Part shown: one piece after another, positions 29,349 through 41,353 of the stretch | Position numbering within the stretch: position 1 is the stretch's first letter | How the letters are laid out: each line of letters opens with the position of its first letter | NCBI GenBank assembly: GCA_943359455.1 | Contig: CALRHL010000008.1 | Location: 1-41,353 of the forward strand | Length of the DNA: 41,353 nucleotides | Direction: 5' to 3' | Source of the DNA: Candidatus Uhrbacteria bacterium RIFOXYB12_FULL_58_10 | GTDB taxonomy: Bacteria > Patescibacteriota > Patescibacteriia > UBA9934 > GWF2-40-263 | Position numbers and translations under genes: made by a program | The notes under the pieces: generated by a model | Database searches by the model: none | What the model was told of the DNA's origin: nothing | What the model saw: the letters and a program-made list of their open reading frames with translations, nothing else

Positions 29349-30107
29349 ATGAAAAAGAACGATATCTTGTCTCCTGAGGTGCTTGAGTTGCTTGGACTCA
29401 CCAAGAAAGATCTTGATGTGTACCAAGCGTTGCTCCGCCTTGGCTCTGCGCCACTTCGTCGGATTGCTGAGGAAGCGAATCTCAATCGCGGAACAGCATA
29501 CGATGCGCTCAAGCATTTGCTCGATGCGAATCTTGTTTCGTACGTGGATGCAAAAACACATCGGTATTTTACTGCCGAAGAGCCGCATAAGTTGCGAGGA
29601 CTTGCGACGCGTCGGGAAGTTGCGATGCGTGAGGCGAGTAAAACAATCGACGCGTTGATTCCATCGTTTGACGTTGTTCGCGGTGAGTCTGGTCACCGTC
29701 CTGCTGTTCGTTATTACGAAGGCGACGCAGGGGTGAAAGATATTCTTGAGGATGTTCTGACGATCACCGAGCGGTCTGAGACTCGAGAATATCGTGTGTA
29801 CTCGACGGCGGCGATTCGTGACAGAAAAGACGCAGCATGGCCGACCTTCTCAAAAGAGCGTGTCAAACGCGCCGTCCGTTGTCGAGCGATCGCGATCGGA
29901 AAAGGCGGTACGACCGCTGGACTCGACGAGCGCCGTTGGCTTTCACAGTCCGATTCTGGTCCATCATACATTGCGATCTATCATGGGAAGACTGCGTACA
30001 TTTTCATGGACAGCAAAAAGCGACTGTTTGGCGTCATTATCGAAGACAGCGCGATCTCAGCCATGCAGGAATTGATCTTTGACGCGCTCTGGAAATCGCT
30101 TGCGTAA
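29349..30107 (+). CDS. TrmB-family transcriptional regulator
   Basis: 252 residues. N-terminal winged helix: LLGLTKKDLDVYQALLRLGSAPLRRIAEEANLNRGTAYDALKHL, typical of TrmB/sugar-sensing regulators. The C-terminal domain (about 115-252) resembles the truncated phospholipase-D-like effector domain of TrmB-like proteins (RYYEGDAGVKDIL, and FGVIIED near the end). The ligand and regulon are unknown. Monocistronic, between the pyrH terminator and a palindromic repeat. Confidence 0.8.
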   Translation: MKKNDILSPEVLELLGLTKKDLDVYQALLRLGSAPLRRIAEEANLNRGTAYDALKHLLDANLVSYVDAKTHRYFTAEEPHKLRGLATRREVAMREASKTIDALIPSFDVVRGESGHRPAVRYYEGDAGVKDILEDVLTITERSETREYRVYSTAAIRDRKDAAWPTFSKERVKRAVRCRAIAIGKGGTTAGLDERRWLSQSDSGPSYIAIYHGKTAYIFMDSKKRLFGVIIEDSAISAMQELIFDALWKSLA

Positions 30108-30796: not shown

Positions 30797-31408
30797 ATGG
30801 ATCTCAATTCTCAAAAACCGTCCTGGCTTCCTAAATTTCTTGTCTTACTTGCGGTTATTGTCGCCGGAGGAGTTGGTGCGTATCTTCAAAAGCAGTCCGA
30901 TTCTTCTGATTCGAAAGCGGCACCTGACCTCGCTGTCACTGGAATTAAATCGTCCGACGGTGAGCCTGTCACGGCCGTCGTGACTCCAGATAATGAATCA
31001 GAGCAGGATGACACGACGACAGACGCCAGTTCGACAGTAGCTTCCATCTCTCCTGCTCCATCGACCTCTTTAACCACAACAACAGCTTCAACGACCGCAC
31101 CAACCACGTCGGAATACACCAACGGAACGTACTCCGCGATTGGGGATTATACTTCTCCGGGTGGACCAGAAACGGTTGATGTCACTCTTACGGTTGTGAA
31201 TGGGCTTGTTGTTGATGCAACCGTCGAAGGAAATGCGGTGAATCCTATTTCCAAAAAATTTCAAGCACAGTTTATTGCTGGATACCGAGGTTTCGTCGTT
31301 GGAAAAATGATTTCTAGTCTTAGTTTAACGACCGTTTCTGGTTCGTCACTTACTCCAAAAGGGTTCAATGATGCCGTTTCGGATATTCGAACACAGGCAA
31401 AAGGATAG
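30797..31408 (+). CDS. Exported FMN-binding-domain protein (flavinylation target)
   Basis: 203 residues. One N-terminal membrane anchor (about 12-30), a Ser/Thr/Asp-rich low-complexity linker (about 33-105), then an FMN-binding domain (PF04205 type) starting NGTYSAIGDYTSPGG. The motif SGSSLT (S181-T186) corresponds to the [S/T/D]GA[T/S]xT sequence whose last Thr receives FMN from ApbE; the usual Ala is Ser here. It would be an extracytosolic electron carrier held to the membrane. First gene of a three-gene cassette with apbE (4 bp later) and the RnfD/NqrB-FNR fusion. Confidence 0.85.
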   Translation: MDLNSQKPSWLPKFLVLLAVIVAGGVGAYLQKQSDSSDSKAAPDLAVTGIKSSDGEPVTAVVTPDNESEQDDTTTDASSTVASISPAPSTSLTTTTASTTAPTTSEYTNGTYSAIGDYTSPGGPETVDVTLTVVNGLVVDATVEGNAVNPISKKFQAQFIAGYRGFVVGKMISSLSLTTVSGSSLTPKGFNDAVSDIRTQAKG

Positions 31409-31412
31409 TCGT

Positions 31413-32270
31413 ATGCCAACCACATTCGCCTTTCTGGCGATTGGAACTTCTTGGAAGATTATTATTGATAAGGAGCTGATCGAATCTGAATCGACAGCTC
31501 TTTTGCGTCTGATTGAAGCGCGGATTGAGCGATTCGATCAGACGTATTCGCGGTTTCGGATGGATTCGGTTGTGACACAGATGTCCCAACAGGCGGGCAC
31601 GTATAAACTTCCAGACGACGCTGTTTCAATGCTTCAGGTGTACAAACAATTGTATGAGGTGACAAATGGACAATTTACCCCTCTCATCGGTCAGACGATT
31701 TCTGATGCTGGATACGATGCAAACTATTCGCTCGTTTCAAAAAAACTGACGCATCCACCGCGATGGGAAGAGGTGATGGAATATCATGATTCTGTTTTGA
31801 CAATGAAACGTCCAGCACTGCTCGATTTTGGTGCGGGAGGGAAGGGATATCTTGCGGATTTGGTTGCACAGATTTTGTTGGACGCGGAACTCCTGTCGTT
31901 TGTTGTTGATGCGGGTGGGGATATTGTTTGTCGCGGACAGACGCGCGTTGGTCTGGAACATCCGATTCGAACAGACGAGGCGATCGGAATTGCGACCGTA
32001 ACAAACGGAAGCATCTGCGGCTCTGCAATAAATCGTCGCGCGTGGGGAGAGTTTCATCACATCATGAATCCTGTCACACTCACATCCACACGTCACTTGC
32101 TTGCGACTTGGGTGATCGCAGATTCTGGACTGATTGCCGACGCGCTCGCGACCTGTCTTTTTTTCTGCTCGCCAGAAGTGCTCAAAACCGTGTATGATTT
32201 CGAATACGTGATGATGTTTGCAGATGAGCACGTCGAGTTTTCACCAGACGGAAGGTTTGAATTGTTTTAA
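31413..32270 (+). CDS. apbE: FAD:protein FMN transferase (ApbE family)
   Basis: 285 residues from the ATG at 31413. IERFDQTYSRFRMDSVVTQM, GQFTPLIGQTISDAGYD, LDFGAGGKGYLADLVA, VDAGGDIVCRG and CGSAINRRAWGEFHHIMNP are the conserved FAD- and Mg-binding segments. It transfers FMN from FAD to a Thr of target proteins; the neighbouring FMN-binding protein is the obvious target. No signal peptide or lipobox is seen, unlike most ApbE proteins, which act outside the membrane; either export is non-standard or the modification takes place before export. Stop is 2 bp before the next gene. Confidence 0.92.
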   Translation: MPTTFAFLAIGTSWKIIIDKELIESESTALLRLIEARIERFDQTYSRFRMDSVVTQMSQQAGTYKLPDDAVSMLQVYKQLYEVTNGQFTPLIGQTISDAGYDANYSLVSKKLTHPPRWEEVMEYHDSVLTMKRPALLDFGAGGKGYLADLVAQILLDAELLSFVVDAGGDIVCRGQTRVGLEHPIRTDEAIGIATVTNGSICGSAINRRAWGEFHHIMNPVTLTSTRHLLATWVIADSGLIADALATCLFFCSPEVLKTVYDFEYVMMFADEHVEFSPDGRFELF

Positions 32271-32272
32271 AT

Positions 32273-33757
32273 ATGCTCACAAAAATCGATCAGTTCCTCA
32301 ACAACATCACGATGTACCGCCTTATGCTGTACGTTCTTGCGATGATGTCTGCCGTTGGAATCGTGCTTGGTTTTTTTGGACGCGTTTCTGGATCAGGTCT
32401 GTCGTTGATCGGATCGTTGATCTGTTTACTGTTTGTCTGTTATGTGTCGAATACCTTGTTTGCCCGCATGACAGGAGCGGCTGTTAATGAAGAATCTTCG
32501 GCGATTACGGCATTTATTTTATTCCTAATTTTATTTCCAGCCATTCAATTGACTGATTATGGATTTATCGCTTTTGCTGGGGTTGCGGCAATGGCATCAA
32601 AATATGTCATCACGATCTACAATCGTCATCTGTTGAACCCAGCTGCCGTCGGTGCTGCTGTTGCTGGCCTGACAGGATGGGGAGCAAGTTGGTGGGTAGG
32701 GAGTGCATGGATGCTTCCCGTGGTTTTGATCGGTGGATTGCTTGTTGTACGCAAAACACGACGTGGATATTTGTTTGGGACGTTTGTATTAGCGGCCATT
32801 GCGAGTGTCTTTGTCTCTGCTTGGTGGATGGGTCGCCCGCTGTCTGTCGATCTGTTGCAAGAAGCATTTTTGTCCTGGCCGATATTGTTCTTTGGAACGA
32901 TCATGCTGACAGAACCATTCACACTTCCGCCCTCTAAGTATTGGCAAATGTCAGAGGCGGCGCTTATTGGATTATTTTTTGCCATCCCATTTCATTTTGG
33001 GGAGATTTTTTCATCACCAGAATTACTGCTTATTTTTGGGAACCTGTTTGCATGCGCGGATGGGTTTAAGCGTTTGTATCGTTTGCGCCTTGAGAAAAAA
33101 ACCGAGATTGCTCCTCAAGTCCTTGAATTTGTTTTTTCAACAGAAACAAAACCGATGTTCACTCCCGGACAATATTTTGAATGGACACTTCCACATGAAA
33201 AACCAGATACGCGCGGGAATCGTCGGACGTTCACGGTCGCATCGTCTCCGCTGGAATCCACTGTCCGTCTCGGGATCCGCATGCCGACTGAGCCAAGCAG
33301 TTTTAAGCGTGCACTGTCCGCTTTGAAAATAGGTGATGTGATGTTTGCCTCAAACGTTGGCGGCGAATTCGTCCTTCCGCGCGATCCAAAATGCAAACTC
33401 ACGTTTATCGCAGGTGGAATTGGCATCACTCCGTTTCGAAGTATGGCACAGCATATGCTCGATCAAAACCAAAAGCGTGATGCCATGCTTTTTTATGCCT
33501 GCAAAACTCCGAGCGACTTTGCATTTCAAGATGTGTTCGACCGCGCCTCTGAGTCAGGTCTTCGCTGTCTGTACGTCGCGACAGATCGAGATGGATATCT
33601 CACGCAAGAAAAAATCAAACAAGAAACCCCCGATTTTCTCGAACGCTTCTACTATCTGTCTGGTCCGCCTGGTATGGTTCAGTCGTATCAAATGCTTTTG
33701 AAAAAATTGGACGTCCCCTCATCCCAAGTTTACACAGATTATTTTCCTGGATACTAG
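32273..33757 (+). CDS. RnfD/NqrB-like membrane domain fused to ferredoxin-NAD(P)+ reductase domain
   Basis: 494 residues. Residues 1-270 hold about 8-10 membrane helices with RHLLNPAAVGAA and MLTEPFTLPPS, the segments typical of RnfD/NqrB. Residues about 275-494 form an FNR domain: RRTFTVASSP (317-326) for FAD, GGIGITPFRSM (381-391) for NAD(P)H phosphate, and YLSGPPGMV (461-469). The fusion should take electrons from cytoplasmic NAD(P)H and pass them through the membrane domain to the exported flavinylated protein encoded upstream. No other Rnf or Nqr subunit is in the window. A TIR-like fragment (GCAGAGGTCTC) follows the stop at about 33765. Confidence 0.88.
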   Translation: MLTKIDQFLNNITMYRLMLYVLAMMSAVGIVLGFFGRVSGSGLSLIGSLICLLFVCYVSNTLFARMTGAAVNEESSAITAFILFLILFPAIQLTDYGFIAFAGVAAMASKYVITIYNRHLLNPAAVGAAVAGLTGWGASWWVGSAWMLPVVLIGGLLVVRKTRRGYLFGTFVLAAIASVFVSAWWMGRPLSVDLLQEAFLSWPILFFGTIMLTEPFTLPPSKYWQMSEAALIGLFFAIPFHFGEIFSSPELLLIFGNLFACADGFKRLYRLRLEKKTEIAPQVLEFVFSTETKPMFTPGQYFEWTLPHEKPDTRGNRRTFTVASSPLESTVRLGIRMPTEPSSFKRALSALKIGDVMFASNVGGEFVLPRDPKCKLTFIAGGIGITPFRSMAQHMLDQNQKRDAMLFYACKTPSDFAFQDVFDRASESGLRCLYVATDRDGYLTQEKIKQETPDFLERFYYLSGPPGMVQSYQMLLKKLDVPSSQVYTDYFPGY

Positions 33758-33771
33758 CGGCAGAGGTCTCC

Positions 33772-34170
33772 TTACATAATCCGAAAAAGTTTCGCGATCA
33801 GTCCCATTTTTTCTGGCTTTGCTGGAGTTAGTTCTTCTAACAACACGTACTCTCCCCGTGATAATCGATACTTGAGTTTATCAACCATGAGGAGGATACG
33901 CTTATTTTCCTCTTCCAAATTCGGATTCTTATACGCCCACACATACTTGTGATTTCCTTCGCCAAGGTTTGCTTGATCAAAATGCATGTTAATCGCAAAA
34001 CCGCCTTCCAGCATTTCATGCACCATCGCGTGAAATCGAGGAAAGGCGGCTTCATGAGCTTTTCGAACAAACGTAAGTCCCATACCGTCTGTGACATGTT
34101 CGGTATAACCGAAATGACGCATCAGCGTGCGAGCGTCGGTAGGAAGTGGCCCAGCGACTGTGCAGCGCAT
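33772..34170 (-). CDS. Conserved protein of unknown function (paralogue of 38233-38622)
   Basis: 132 residues from the ATG at 34170. The start is fixed by alignment with the paralogue, in which both proteins have six residues before GPL (MRCTVAGPL / MNTFIPGPL), and by a TTGACA promoter just upstream; a longer TTG-started frame to 34206 would use the -35 box as codons. Shared positions: ARxLxRxxGYxEH, FPRxHAxV, GGxxxNxHxDQ, ExxNxRI. His and Asp residues in NMHFDQ could bind a metal (inference). Short amphipathic C-terminus (MGLIAKLFRIM). No family recognised. Confidence 0.65.
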   Translation of the reverse strand: MRCTVAGPLPTDARTLMRHFGYTEHVTDGMGLTFVRKAHEAAFPRFHAMVHEMLEGGFAINMHFDQANLGEGNHKYVWAYKNPNLEEENKRILLMVDKLKYRLSRGEYVLLEELTPAKPEKMGLIAKLFRIM

Positions 34171-34178
34171 ATACTCAT

Positions 34179-34206
34179 AACGTACCTCATCGTGATTGTG
34201 TGTCAA
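34179..34206 (-). promoter_or_regulatory. Promoter for the gene at 33772-34170
   Basis: On the minus strand: -35 TTGACA (34201-34206, perfect), 16-bp spacer, -10 TACGTT (34179-34184), then 8 nt to the ATG at 34170. Predicts a leaderless mRNA. Confidence 0.6.
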
Positions 34207-34227
34207 GTATTCTGATGTGGATAAGGA

Positions 34228-34243
34228 GACTTTTGCAGAGGCC
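34228..34243. repeat. Solo terminal repeat of the MITE family
   Basis: GACTTTTGCAGAGGCC matches the right end of the 161-bp elements (GACTTTTGCAGAGGTCC) with one change. The rest of an element is absent. It lies between two divergent genes, just upstream of the -10 at 34251. A shorter similar fragment (GCAGAGGTCTC) sits at about 33765-33775, on the other side of gene 33772-34170. Confidence 0.55.
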
Positions 34244-34250
34244 TTTAGAG

Positions 34251-34256
34251 TATACT
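34251..34256 (+). promoter_or_regulatory. -10 box for the fatty-acid-hydroxylase-like gene
   Basis: TATACT, 8 nt before the ATG at 34265. No SD is present, so a leaderless start is likely. The upstream half of the promoter falls in the MITE-end fragment. Confidence 0.5.
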
Positions 34257-34264
34257 TGTTTTGT

Positions 34265-34984
34265 ATGATTCAACTCGCCATCATTTGTCTTGCAGCGATT
34301 CTCTTTTTTACGATCGAGCATATCCGTCCTGGTCGTGTTCTCCCCAATGCGCCTGGATGGTATGTGCGTGCAATTACTCTAAACGCGTTTCAGTTCTCTC
34401 TTGTCTTCATCGCGGGCTCCACATGGAATAAATGGTTTCAAGAATCCTCCCTATTTTCGTTCTCAGGATTCACTCATCCAATCCTCGAAGGCATCTTCTA
34501 CTGGTTCATCGGCACCTTCGTCTTTTACTGGTGGCATCGTCTCCGACATCAACCGGGTTGGTGGAAGGTTTTTCATCAAATTCATCACAGTCCAACGCGT
34601 ATTGAAACACTCACGGCTTTTTACAAACACCCTTTCGAGATGGTCGTGAACTCTGTTCTCATCAGTTTTATTATTTTCGTCATGTTCGGCGGATCCATCC
34701 AAGCGGCAGCATGGTACAACGTTTTCGCCGTGCTCGGAGAATTTTTCTATCACATGAACGTCCAGACGCCACACTGGTTCGGCTACTTCATCCAACGCCC
34801 CGAACACCACTCCATCCACCACGCCCGCGGCATTCACCACTACAATTTCGCCGACATCACCTGGTGGGACCGCTTGTTCGGAACGTTCCGCGAGACAGAC
34901 CAGTTTGCTGTTGCGTGCGGATTTGAAGATTATAAGGAAGAACGAATTGGTGAGATGATTGGAATGAGGGATGTCTTGAAATGA
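34265..34984 (+). CDS. Fatty acid hydroxylase / sterol desaturase superfamily membrane protein
   Basis: 239 residues from the ATG at 34265. About four membrane segments and the eight-His di-iron pattern: HRLRH, HQIHH and the EHHSIHH...HH cluster. The family hydroxylates or desaturates lipids with a di-iron centre and O2. If the organism is anaerobic, the reaction may differ. An in-frame ATG at 34196 would overlap the promoter and the MITE end and is not used. Convergent with the next gene. Confidence 0.88.
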   Translation: MIQLAIICLAAILFFTIEHIRPGRVLPNAPGWYVRAITLNAFQFSLVFIAGSTWNKWFQESSLFSFSGFTHPILEGIFYWFIGTFVFYWWHRLRHQPGWWKVFHQIHHSPTRIETLTAFYKHPFEMVVNSVLISFIIFVMFGGSIQAAAWYNVFAVLGEFFYHMNVQTPHWFGYFIQRPEHHSIHHARGIHHYNFADITWWDRLFGTFRETDQFAVACGFEDYKEERIGEMIGMRDVLK

Positions 34985-38223: not shown

Positions 38224-38232
38224 TTGATCATT

Positions 38233-38622
38233 ATGAACACCTTTATTCCAGGCCCACTTGCAGACAATGCACGCAACCTTCTTCGCAGGGCAGGCTACGG
38301 CGAGCATCGAGGACGAGAGGCGCAGTTGTCGTATACGAAACGGATTCAGGGGACGTTGTTTCCGCGGTATCATGCGTATGTGGAAGATCGCAATGGTGGG
38401 ATGCAGTTGAATTTGCATTTGGATCAAAAGGAGTCGTCACTTGGAAGTGCACACGCGCATAGTGGAGAGTATTCTGGACCGCTTGTAGAAAGGGAAAATG
38501 CGAGGATCGTGGCATTTGTGAAGTCACTAGATTGCGTAGAAGGCCAAGAGGCGTCGAGGCCAGAAGGCCAGAGGGAGACAAAGAAATCTGGTGGATTTTT
38601 TGGCTGGTTGTTTGGAGGTTAG
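38233..38622 (+). CDS. Conserved protein of unknown function (paralogue of 33772-34170)
   Basis: 129 residues from the ATG at 38233 (the frame also allows TTG at 38224, which lies between -10 and start). Aligns with the protein at 33772-34170 over its length: GPLxxxARxLLRxxGYxEH, FPRYHAYV, GGMQLNLHLDQ and ERENARIVAFVKSL. It ends in a Gly/aromatic tail (SGGFFGWLFGG) after a charged linker, in place of the paralogue's amphipathic tail. Function unknown. Both paralogues lie next to MITE ends. Confidence 0.65.
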   Translation: MNTFIPGPLADNARNLLRRAGYGEHRGREAQLSYTKRIQGTLFPRYHAYVEDRNGGMQLNLHLDQKESSLGSAHAHSGEYSGPLVERENARIVAFVKSLDCVEGQEASRPEGQRETKKSGGFFGWLFGG

Positions 38623-38667: not shown

Positions 38668-39309
38668 ATGGCGATGGAAGGCACTCACATTCGATTCGCT
38701 CGTGATCTGCTCGCGCAATCCTTGCTGTCTGTGACAGATCTGACGGCCTACTATTCTGGCGCAGTGTATCCGGACTCGCGGTATGTGACAGGGATTCCTC
38801 GTTCACAAACGCATGAAAATCAGTGTCCTCAGGATCCGTTCATGTCTGGCCTGACAGATTTCGAGAAAGGATGGGCGACACATCTTGTGTATGATGTACT
38901 CGCGTCGATCGAGAAACGAACAGCTCTTGCGACGATTCCCAATGAGTACCGTGAAGACGACTGGGCGTTTCATTCTGCAATCAAGCTTGTTGAGGATCAG
39001 CAGTCTGTCCTTCTTCTTGGCTCAGATACGCAGATTCTCCAAACACTTATTCTGACCGAACGCCCGCGCAATGAAGACTTGGAAAAAATGGTACAGTACT
39101 ATCAAAACCTGCGTGAAGCATACGGTTCGAATGGCACATTTGAAGACTATCACGCAACGTCTCTCAAATGGGGAATGCCTCGCACACGTGTTGATCGCCT
39201 GATTGAGCTTTCAAAAATTTTTTCAGAAGATCCCGCGGTTGTAGAAGTAATCCGCTTGATTTATCCAACCGTGTTTAACCGATATGTCCTTCGCTCCATT
39301 CACACATAA
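38668..39309 (+). CDS. Zinc-dependent phospholipase C-like protein
   Basis: 213 residues. MEGTHIRFARDLL, YYSGAVYPDSRYVTG, SQTHEN and FEKGWATHLVYDVLAS match the His/Asp metal-site layout of PF00882 (zinc-dependent phospholipase C fold). No signal peptide is visible, unlike secreted phospholipases, so a cytoplasmic phosphoesterase role is as likely. Its last 26 bp overlap the P-type ATPase start. Confidence 0.65.
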   Translation: MAMEGTHIRFARDLLAQSLLSVTDLTAYYSGAVYPDSRYVTGIPRSQTHENQCPQDPFMSGLTDFEKGWATHLVYDVLASIEKRTALATIPNEYREDDWAFHSAIKLVEDQQSVLLLGSDTQILQTLILTERPRNEDLEKMVQYYQNLREAYGSNGTFEDYHATSLKWGMPRTRVDRLIELSKIFSEDPAVVEVIRLIYPTVFNRYVLRSIHT

Positions 39310-41353
39310 ACCAACAGATGAAGTTTTAGAGATTCTTAAATGCTCATCCGCTGGATTATCTTTTGAGGAGGCACAGCGTCGTCTGGCAGAATTTGGCGCG
39401 AACGAATTGCCTCGGCATTCGGTTCGTTGGTACCGTATTCTCTTTCGTCAGTTCACTTCTCCATTTTTATATCTGCTTGCGGGAGCGGCAGGAATTGCGT
39501 TTTTGCTCGGGGAAATAATTGATGGGGCGATGATTACGGTGTTCGTGCTCATTAACGCAGGACTTGGATTTGCACAGGAATACCATTCTGAAAGGGCGGT
39601 TGAATTACTTCGTACGTTTGTGAAAGCGCGCTCGCGCGTGCGACGTGACGGTCACGAACTGCTCATCGAAAGTCGCGATCTGATTTCGGGAGATATTCTT
39701 ATTGTCGAAACGGGCGATGTCATTCAAGCAGACGTACGATTTATCGAAGCGGAAAATGTGAGTGTGGATGAGTCAGCTCTCACCGGAGAATCCGTTGCGG
39801 TTTCAAAAAAGGCTGATGCGTTAGAGGAAGAAGTCCATGAAGCGTATCAGGCTACGAACATTGGATTTGCTGGAACGACCGTTGTTTCTGGTCGTGGAGT
39901 TGCGGTTGTTTTTTCCACAGGTGTACACACTCAGATAGGGGAGGTAAGTGAATTGACAGGCCAAACAGAAGATCAAAGCGCGTTTGAAAAAAGTTTGGGA
40001 AAATTTAGTGTCTTGATTCTTCGGGTTATTCTCGTGACGTTGGGCATCGTTTTTCTTGCAAATGTTTTGGTCAAAGGAGCGTCCGTCGATCTTGCAGAGC
40101 TCCTTATTTTTTCGATTGCGCTCGCCGTCTCGGTCATTCCAGAAGCTCTTCCTGTTGTGACAACGATGACTCTTTCACGAGGCGCGCTTCGACTTGCAAA
40201 GGAGCATGTGGTTGTGAAACGACTTTCTGCAATCGAAGATTTGGGATCGATCGAGGTGTTGTGTACAGACAAAACAGGAACGATTACAGAAAATAAAATG
40301 GTCGTGGCAGATGTTTTGTCTGAACAAAAACAGAACTGCTTATTTCTTGCGGCCGCCGCTTCCTCATTTCTCGGGGAGAAACAGATGCAACCGAATAACG
40401 CGTTTGATATTGCGGTCTGGAATCGGCTTGACGAGGCAGAAAAAACGCGTGTGCAAGCAACGACGCGAACACATGAAGTTCCGTTTGATCCAGCCCGTCG
40501 ATGGAATTCGGTTGTTGTTGATGGTCAACTTGTCGTGCGAGGCGCGCCAGAGGAAGTTGGGTTGCTTTGTAAAGAATCAAGAAAGGATGAAAGTTGGATC
40601 AAGGCCGAAGGAGAGAAGGGACGGCGAGTGTTGGCGATCGCAACTGGTGAAGACGAACATCGTTTGAAAATGATCGGAGTCATTTCTTTTGAGGACCCGG
40701 TTAAATCAACGGCGGTGCAGGCGATTTTGCATGCAAAACAATTAGGGGTTCAGGTAAAAATTCTTACGGGAGACAGTGCAGAGGTCGCGGGTGCTGTCGC
40801 AAAGACCGTCGGTCTTATCGCAGATCAATCTGAGGTTGTGGCTGGTGAGGCATGGGAGCAACTTTCTGTGACAGATCGAGTTTTGAGTGCAAAGTCGCAT
40901 GCGGTATTTGTGCGTGTTTCTCCACAGCAAAAATATCTCATTATTCAAGCGTTGAGAACTGATCAGGAAGTTGGATTTTTAGGAGAAGGGATTAATGATG
41001 CTCCTGCACTCAAAATGGCGTCGGTTGGAATTGTCGTTGATGGGGCGTCGGATATTGCTCGCGAGGCAGCAGACATTGTTTTGCTCAAACACTCGCTTGA
41101 AGTCGTTATTGGTGGAATTCGTGAGGGGCGGGAAGTGTTCGCCAACACCGTAAAGTATATCAAAGCAACACTCGCATCAAATTTTGGAAATTTTCTTGCG
41201 GTCGCAACGGCGACATTGCTTGTCGACTATCTTCCCATGCTCCCTGTTCAAATTTTGCTCGTTAATTTACTGTCTGACTTTCCAATGATTGCGATCGCGA
41301 CAGACGCGGTAGATCCGGAGGAACTAAAAAGTCCGCGGTCCTACGATATCAAG
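39284..41353 (+). CDS. Cation-transporting P-type ATPase (MgtA/P3-like), 3' end outside window
   Basis: 690 residues visible from the ATG at 39284, overlapping the previous gene by 26 bp; the frame is open to the window end. Order: N-terminal cation-ATPase domain (STDEVL-like start), membrane pair, actuator domain with DESALTGES, phosphorylation site D329 in CTDKTGTIT, KILTGDSAEVAGAVAKTVGL, hinge FLGEGINDAPALK, then FANTVKYIKATLASNFGNFL and LPMLPVQILLVNLLSDFPMIAIATDAVD. The last segments resemble MgtA-type Mg2+ importers more than Ca2+ pumps. The hinge has GEG instead of the near-universal GDG. Confidence 0.88.
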   Translation, partial: MSFAPFTHKPTDEVLEILKCSSAGLSFEEAQRRLAEFGANELPRHSVRWYRILFRQFTSPFLYLLAGAAGIAFLLGEIIDGAMITVFVLINAGLGFAQEYHSERAVELLRTFVKARSRVRRDGHELLIESRDLISGDILIVETGDVIQADVRFIEAENVSVDESALTGESVAVSKKADALEEEVHEAYQATNIGFAGTTVVSGRGVAVVFSTGVHTQIGEVSELTGQTEDQSAFEKSLGKFSVLILRVILVTLGIVFLANVLVKGASVDLAELLIFSIALAVSVIPEALPVVTTMTLSRGALRLAKEHVVVKRLSAIEDLGSIEVLCTDKTGTITENKMVVADVLSEQKQNCLFLAAAASSFLGEKQMQPNNAFDIAVWNRLDEAEKTRVQATTRTHEVPFDPARRWNSVVVDGQLVVRGAPEEVGLLCKESRKDESWIKAEGEKGRRVLAIATGEDEHRLKMIGVISFEDPVKSTAVQAILHAKQLGVQVKILTGDSAEVAGAVAKTVGLIADQSEVVAGEAWEQLSVTDRVLSAKSHAVFVRVSPQQKYLIIQALRTDQEVGFLGEGINDAPALKMASVGIVVDGASDIAREAADIVLLKHSLEVVIGGIREGREVFANTVKYIKATLASNFGNFLAVATATLLVDYLPMLPVQILLVNLLSDFPMIAIATDAVDPEELKSPRSYDIK

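Follow-up and report, generated by a model that had tools for sequence, protein, structure and literature searches.

A three-gene NQR/RNF-like flavinylation cassette in Patescibacteria, with ApbE enzymes lacking an export leader and putative membrane reductases lacking a flavinylated partner

Introduction

Could three adjacent genes suffice to carry electrons from NAD(P)H across a membrane to an extracytosolic flavin, and what would take up the electrons outside? The question is raised by an operon at positions 30797-33757 of a 41,353-nucleotide stretch of DNA (the window) from Candidatus Uhrbacteria bacterium RIFOXYB12_FULL_58_10, a patescibacterial genome of 1.07 Mb that is 97.7% complete. 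Systems built around a fusion of an NqrB/RnfD-like membrane domain to an FNR domain have been described. Passages of the survey by Meheust (2021; eLife e66878, PMC8238504) report 127 NQR/RNF-like clusters with this fusion, mainly in Actinobacteria and CPR, and propose a one-way flow of electrons from NAD(P)H to extracytosolic FMN. Passages of Huang (2024; mSystems e00375-24, PMC11334425) describe the membrane domain of this class as having no covalent FMN site, and suggest that the flavin of the FMN-bind protein may visit a non-covalent flavin site within it.

Results

The operon comprises three contiguous genes on the + strand, arranged head to tail and separated by only 4 and 2 bases, as the preliminary description of this DNA had it. 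They encode an FMN-bind protein of 203 amino acids (30797-31408), an ApbE FAD:protein FMN transferase (31413-32270) and the fusion of an NqrB/RnfD-like membrane domain with an FNR domain (32273-33757). The survey of gene order in relatives that the description called for showed that 63 of 89 loci share the order FMN-bind, ApbE, fusion; this recurrence of gene content and order in dozens of genomes argues that the arrangement is not due to chance. A gene for a TrmB-type regulator (29349-30107, + strand), which lies likewise 5' of the cassette in two genomes of the same genus (loci L020 and L021; about 74% identity), is a possible regulator of the cassette. The window also encodes two mutually related small proteins to which no family was assigned, one directly behind the cassette (33772-34206, − strand) and the other at 38224-38622 (+ strand), and a cation P-type ATPase (39284-41353, + strand, cut by the contig end) that is about 34% identical to those near the cassette in L025, L026 and L030.

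The FMN-bind protein has an N-terminal membrane anchor (a single hydrophobic stretch at residues 14-30, positions 30836-30886 of the + strand, with a Kyte-Doolittle hydropathy of 2.5 over 17 residues), a linker rich in Ser, Thr, Pro and Ala, and a C-terminal FMN-bind domain (residues 98-203). It was identified from a family profile, an alignment and an AlphaFold model. A Pfam search with the single window protein gave no match even at an E-value of 10; PF04205 matched 19 of the 21 aligned members of its family, the window protein taken alone being unmatched, and the family profile found a solved FMN domain, 8p2a, at E 3.6e-16. AlphaFold models the domain with a mean pLDDT of 91.5, and a fold search placed 8p2a, 8p2b and RnfG near the top at E of about 0.05, mixed with unrelated folds; for the identity of this domain the sequence evidence outweighs the fold search.

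The same 21-member alignment, and an alignment with 8p2a, place S181-G182-S183-S184 of the window protein opposite S-G-A-T. According to passages of a review (PMC12052999), the attachment motif reads D-x-x-[S/T]-G-A-[S/T] and carries FMN at its final position. Because the flavinylated residue is the fourth of the aligned SGAT motif, the predicted acceptor is Ser184 (codon 31346-31348, + strand, within TTVSGSS, which aligns with DxxSGAT). T186, which had been named as the attachment site, is a separate conserved Thr two positions past S184, and both alignments rule it out as the acceptor. Nor is the SGSS motif the departure that it was taken for: the 84 members of the FMN-bind family include 46 with SGAT, 19 with SGSS, 13 with SGAS and two with TGAT, so that the window protein carries a common variant within its family.

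A hydropathy test found the membrane anchor in 80 of these 84 proteins. The positive charges flanking it are more numerous on the N side in 54 homologues, equal in 24 and more numerous on the C side in six, with a tie of 2 versus 2 in the window protein itself. From this charge bias and the composition of the linker we infer that the anchor is oriented N-in/C-out and that the FMN-bind domain is extracytosolic. The earlier view of an exported FMN-binding protein on a low-complexity tether thus holds for anchor, linker and family, while its outward face is a judgement from charge bias and linker.

The fusion consists of a membrane domain (approximately residues 1-262) and an FNR domain predicted to bind FAD and NAD(P)H (approximately residues 266-494). 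PF00175 matches the window protein at E 1.6e-13; PF03116 (NQR2_RnfD_RnfE) matches six of seven aligned fusions, the window member itself being unscored, and these six are 40-45% identical to it. A family profile of the membrane half matches the RnfD structure 8ahx_D at E 2.7e-5, and the nearest relative of the FNR half is NqrF. These matches bear out the proposal of a single-polypeptide RnfD/NqrB-FNR fusion. The FNR half contains two invariant motifs, R314-R318 and A380-F388. The AlphaFold2 model of the fusion has a pLDDT of 74, with the membrane half only moderately confident; the matches listed in a fold search lie almost entirely in the FNR half, the model being too uncertain in its membrane part. 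The [ST]GA[ST] motif of covalent FMN attachment occurs in the membrane half (first 280 residues) of none of 88 fusions, and PF02508, which represents the other Rnf/Nqr membrane subunits, is absent from the 97.7% complete window genome (4 of 14 control genomes were positive).

The window operon is, by its sequence features, an ordinary member of the published NQR/RNF-like flavinylation system: it has the fusion, an FMN-bind protein with its motif and an apbE gene, and it has neither a covalent site in the membrane half nor the other subunits. The published systems, among them the Ktedonobacter racemifer model, likewise combine an FMN-bind protein, ApbE and an NqrB/RnfD-PF00175 fusion, and no defining difference separates the window operon from them; the membrane half is without a flavinylation site in both, the class has been reported in CPR, and VIT1 is sometimes found near it. 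The preliminary description, which mentioned related flavinylated systems, was right about the kinship but understated it, since the cassette is the described system itself. Na+-NQR (NqrB, NqrC, NqrF) and RNF (RnfD, RnfG) share homologous membrane, FMN-bind and FAD/NADH domains with it, as well as maturation by ApbE. They differ in that the window genome encodes no RnfA/E or NqrD/E subunit, and hence no complete six-subunit NQR or RNF complex, in that membrane and FNR domains form one polypeptide, and in that the membrane part has no covalent flavin site; ion pumping is probably absent. Listeria-type extracellular electron transfer (FmnB, PplA) has in common with the cassette the ApbE-type flavinylation of a tethered extracytosolic protein, but uses another membrane module, and FmnB acts outside and needs outward trafficking of flavin, whereas the window ApbE appears to be cytosolic.

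This ApbE is the only one of the window genome. PF02424 matches it at E 4.5e-38, in keeping with the flavinyl transferase first proposed, and the closest solved ApbE to the family profile is 4xgw (E 5.3e-38). Translation from the best start, ATG at 31413, enters the core almost at once, and the longest frame, which begins at 31368 within the FMN-bind gene, adds nothing but hydrophilic residues. No signal peptide or lipobox was found by hydropathy at the N-terminus, that of the longest frame included; 12-residue hydropathy peaks at 0.92. An export leader is likewise absent from all 106 patescibacterial ApbEs examined, 76 from fusion loci and 30 from across the phylum. The test took the longest possible reading frame at every locus, which excludes a wrong start codon as the cause of the missing leader. 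In 58 of the 76, no more than 15 residues precede the core, and 12-residue hydropathy peaks at 1.53 among the whole 76; none of the further 30 has a 12-residue stretch above 1.93 in the N-terminal part examined. The leader-bearing controls reached 2.68 (E. coli), 2.94 (Leisingera) and 3.29 (Peptoclostridium). Leaderless ApbEs also lie beside exported FMN-bind proteins in Agrobacterium, Pseudomonas and on Mesorhizobium plasmids. A Sinorhizobium meliloti ApbE beside a nos cluster (L120:2998-3897) has no leader in its longest frame either, so that the absence may reach wider.

Given that these ApbEs lack a leader while their substrates are anchored and judged to face outward, FMN is probably attached to the substrate in the cytosol, before or during export. 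A different arrangement would follow if the FMN-bind domain itself faced the cytosol, were flavinylated there by the leaderless ApbE, and the cassette exported no electrons. The uniform lack of a leader and the even charges of the window anchor would suit such an arrangement, but we regard it as improbable: the bias among homologues favours N-in (54 versus 6), linkers rich in Ser, Thr and Pro are typical of exported tethers, and a membrane-spanning reductase would serve no purpose. The leaderless type of ApbE moreover adjoins FMN-bind proteins with a signal-peptide-like start in Agrobacterium (L116) and a lipobox-like start in Pseudomonas (L121). Flavinylation in the cytosol followed or accompanied by export is therefore the reading that we retain. 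Passages of the review cited above (PMC12052999) name cytosolic ApbE only with intracellular targets, and the published survey, in the passages considered here, demanded that one or more of the target genes encode a signal peptide or a lipidation site, a criterion by which a leaderless ApbE would not have stood out. No description of a leaderless patescibacterial ApbE was found in open-licence full texts on Patescibacteria with ApbE, RnfD or cupredoxin; the feature, which the preliminary description did not contain, appears to be unreported in the searchable papers.

One scan of genome contigs confirmed at least 446 encoded relatives. Among 380 genomes sampled across the phylum, 62 encode a full-length fusion, 85 an ApbE and 44 both, a co-occurrence with an odds ratio of 16.5 (p 6e-20, relatedness not corrected); the class sampling leaves out the Actinobacterial and Ktedonobacter members. 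At five loci (L023, L024, L027, L029, L031) the fetched stretch contains FMN-bind and ApbE genes without a fusion, and several of these adjoin a two-component system and a small exported protein. The cassette is also carried by the Mesorhizobium plasmid pB2-1-1 (L115) and by a metagenome-assembled genome named Devosia (L110). Together these are nested within the patescibacterial tree (a quick tree, 99% SH-aLRT), which suggests a likely transfer of the cassette from Patescibacteria to Hyphomicrobiales.

ApbE is absent from 18 of the 62 fusion genomes, and a genome-level search with the family profile found no FMN-bind domain in 16 of these 18 either. Fusions with neither partner gene nearby (L169-L173, L175-L184, L038, L042, L046, L054, L068, L086 and L088) retain the invariant core residues of both halves. 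On a quick tree they form one group of 11 and scattered singles, requiring nine changes, at least five of them forced by well-supported branches, which implies that partners were lost or replaced several times. T213 (MLTEP, in the membrane half) is nearly invariant in partnered fusions (87 of 88) but conserved in only 13 of 22 partnerless ones; it is a candidate contact point with the outside flavin. A small, membrane-anchored cupredoxin is encoded within 3 kb of 7 of 21 distinct partnerless loci, as against 2 of 93 partnered ones (p 1e-4, computed with 22). Two partnerless fusions have a VKOR-DsbA pair at a distance of up to about 4 kb. As judged from gene content, the putative membrane reductase can therefore occur without a flavinylated partner. 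No mention of the partnerless class was found in open-licence full texts, and it appears to be unreported in the searchable papers; passages of PMC12931201 describe a plastocyanin-like carrier in some Patescibacteriota and do not name the fusion.

The genes that follow the fusion bear on the terminal acceptor. An NRAMP gene lies directly 3' on the same strand in five genomes (L025/L107, L026, L030, L049, L099), four of the Uhrbacteria group and one other, and at further loci this position is taken by VIT1 (L081), ZnuA with ABC genes (L083), or Fur with ZnuA and ABC genes (L098); VIT is also near the Mesorhizobium cassette. Among 60 relatives, 10 genomes have the fusion and 6 of these have NRAMP, compared with 8 of the 50 without it (p 0.007, with no correction for relatedness). 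These recurrent metal-uptake neighbours make metal reduction the likeliest task of the class, although we hold this only tentatively, at somewhat less than an even chance. They extend the hint given by VIT1, which passages of PMC8238504 record beside six NQR/RNF-like clusters, and beyond that hint they appear to be unreported in the searchable papers. Leaderless ApbE, Ser acceptor variants, NRAMP or ZnuABC/Fur neighbours and partnerless fusions are undiscussed in the passages of the Meheust and Huang papers considered here. The window cassette has no adjacent metal transporter; in the window genome NRAMP and FeoB_C were not found, and a VIT1 homologue is present, unlinked to the cassette.

Other neighbours suggest that the FMN-bind protein might instead reduce a periplasmic protein, in methionine sulfoxide repair or as a cupredoxin or thiol oxidoreductase. 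MsrA and MsrB genes follow the fusion in L062, L090 and L102, cupredoxins are neighbours in L054, L065 and L042, that of L065 lying beside the cassette, and the partnerless fusions adjoin cupredoxins or lie close to the VKOR-DsbA genes. Yet among the recognisable genes downstream in partnered loci those for metal uptake form the commonest class, the MsrA of L102 shows no leader and so looks cytosolic, and the window has no such neighbours, so that we consider a protein acceptor unlikely, if worth keeping in mind. A third proposal comes from the window itself. Diiron membrane hydroxylases require an NAD(P)H-fed electron donor, and a gene of the fatty-acid hydroxylase superfamily (34196-34984) lies 0.4 kb 3' of the cassette on the same strand; its product could be the acceptor, with the FNR domain supplying the electrons from the cytosolic side. 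However, an opposite-strand gene (33772-34206) intervenes, a survey of conserved neighbours did not single out any such gene, and the FMN-bind protein and ApbE would be left unexplained, which makes this proposal very hard to credit. For the class as a whole, an extracytosolic metal remains, tentatively, the acceptor that we favour.

Discussion

Our analysis suggests that the operon is very probably a minimal one-way electron exporter of the NQR/RNF-like class. In the model that we propose, NAD(P)H would reduce the FAD of the cytosolic FNR domain, NADH being favoured over NADPH because this half resembles NqrF. The NqrB/RnfD-like domain would then take the electrons across the membrane, probably by way of a non-covalent flavin, since the domain is without the NqrB/RnfD flavinylation site. 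The next carrier would be the FMN that ApbE, loading it in the cytosol before or during export, may place covalently on Ser184 of the FMN-bind protein, tethered outside the cytosol. The electrons would finally pass to an outside acceptor, the likeliest, given the gene neighbourhood in relatives, being an oxidised metal, for instance Fe(III), whose reduction would serve its uptake. The preliminary proposal of transfer from NAD(P)H to an extracytosolic flavin without other Rnf/Nqr subunits agrees with the homology, the published model and the absence of PF02508; the path itself we infer from these.

Flavinylation by a cytosolic ApbE would have a simple consequence for cofactor supply: with the flavinylated chain itself moved across the membrane, export of FAD would be unneeded. 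No FAD synthase domain (PF06574) was found in the 97.7% complete window genome, which carries FAD-dependent proteins, so that FAD would need to be imported and the organism is a probable FAD scavenger. We put forward, with some reserve and at rather less than even odds, the joint reading that cytosolic ApbE flavinylates before or during export across Patescibacteria and that the fusion is a self-standing reductase with an exchangeable outside partner, this partner being a flavinylated FMN-bind protein in most genomes and, elsewhere, a cupredoxin or nothing recognisable.

The genomes of most Patescibacteria are tiny and encode few obvious respiratory enzymes, and a transmembrane reductase present in about one sixth of the sampled genomes would be a simple means of disposing of electrons or of reducing metals on the outside. 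The main interest of the locus lies in the by-products of its comparison with relatives, namely the site of flavinylation and a membrane reductase without a flavinylated partner. The leaderless ApbE poses a clear, testable question of where extracytosolic flavinylation takes place, and the partnerless fusions that adjoin cupredoxins suggest a route of electron export that would have escaped surveys built around flavinylation genes.
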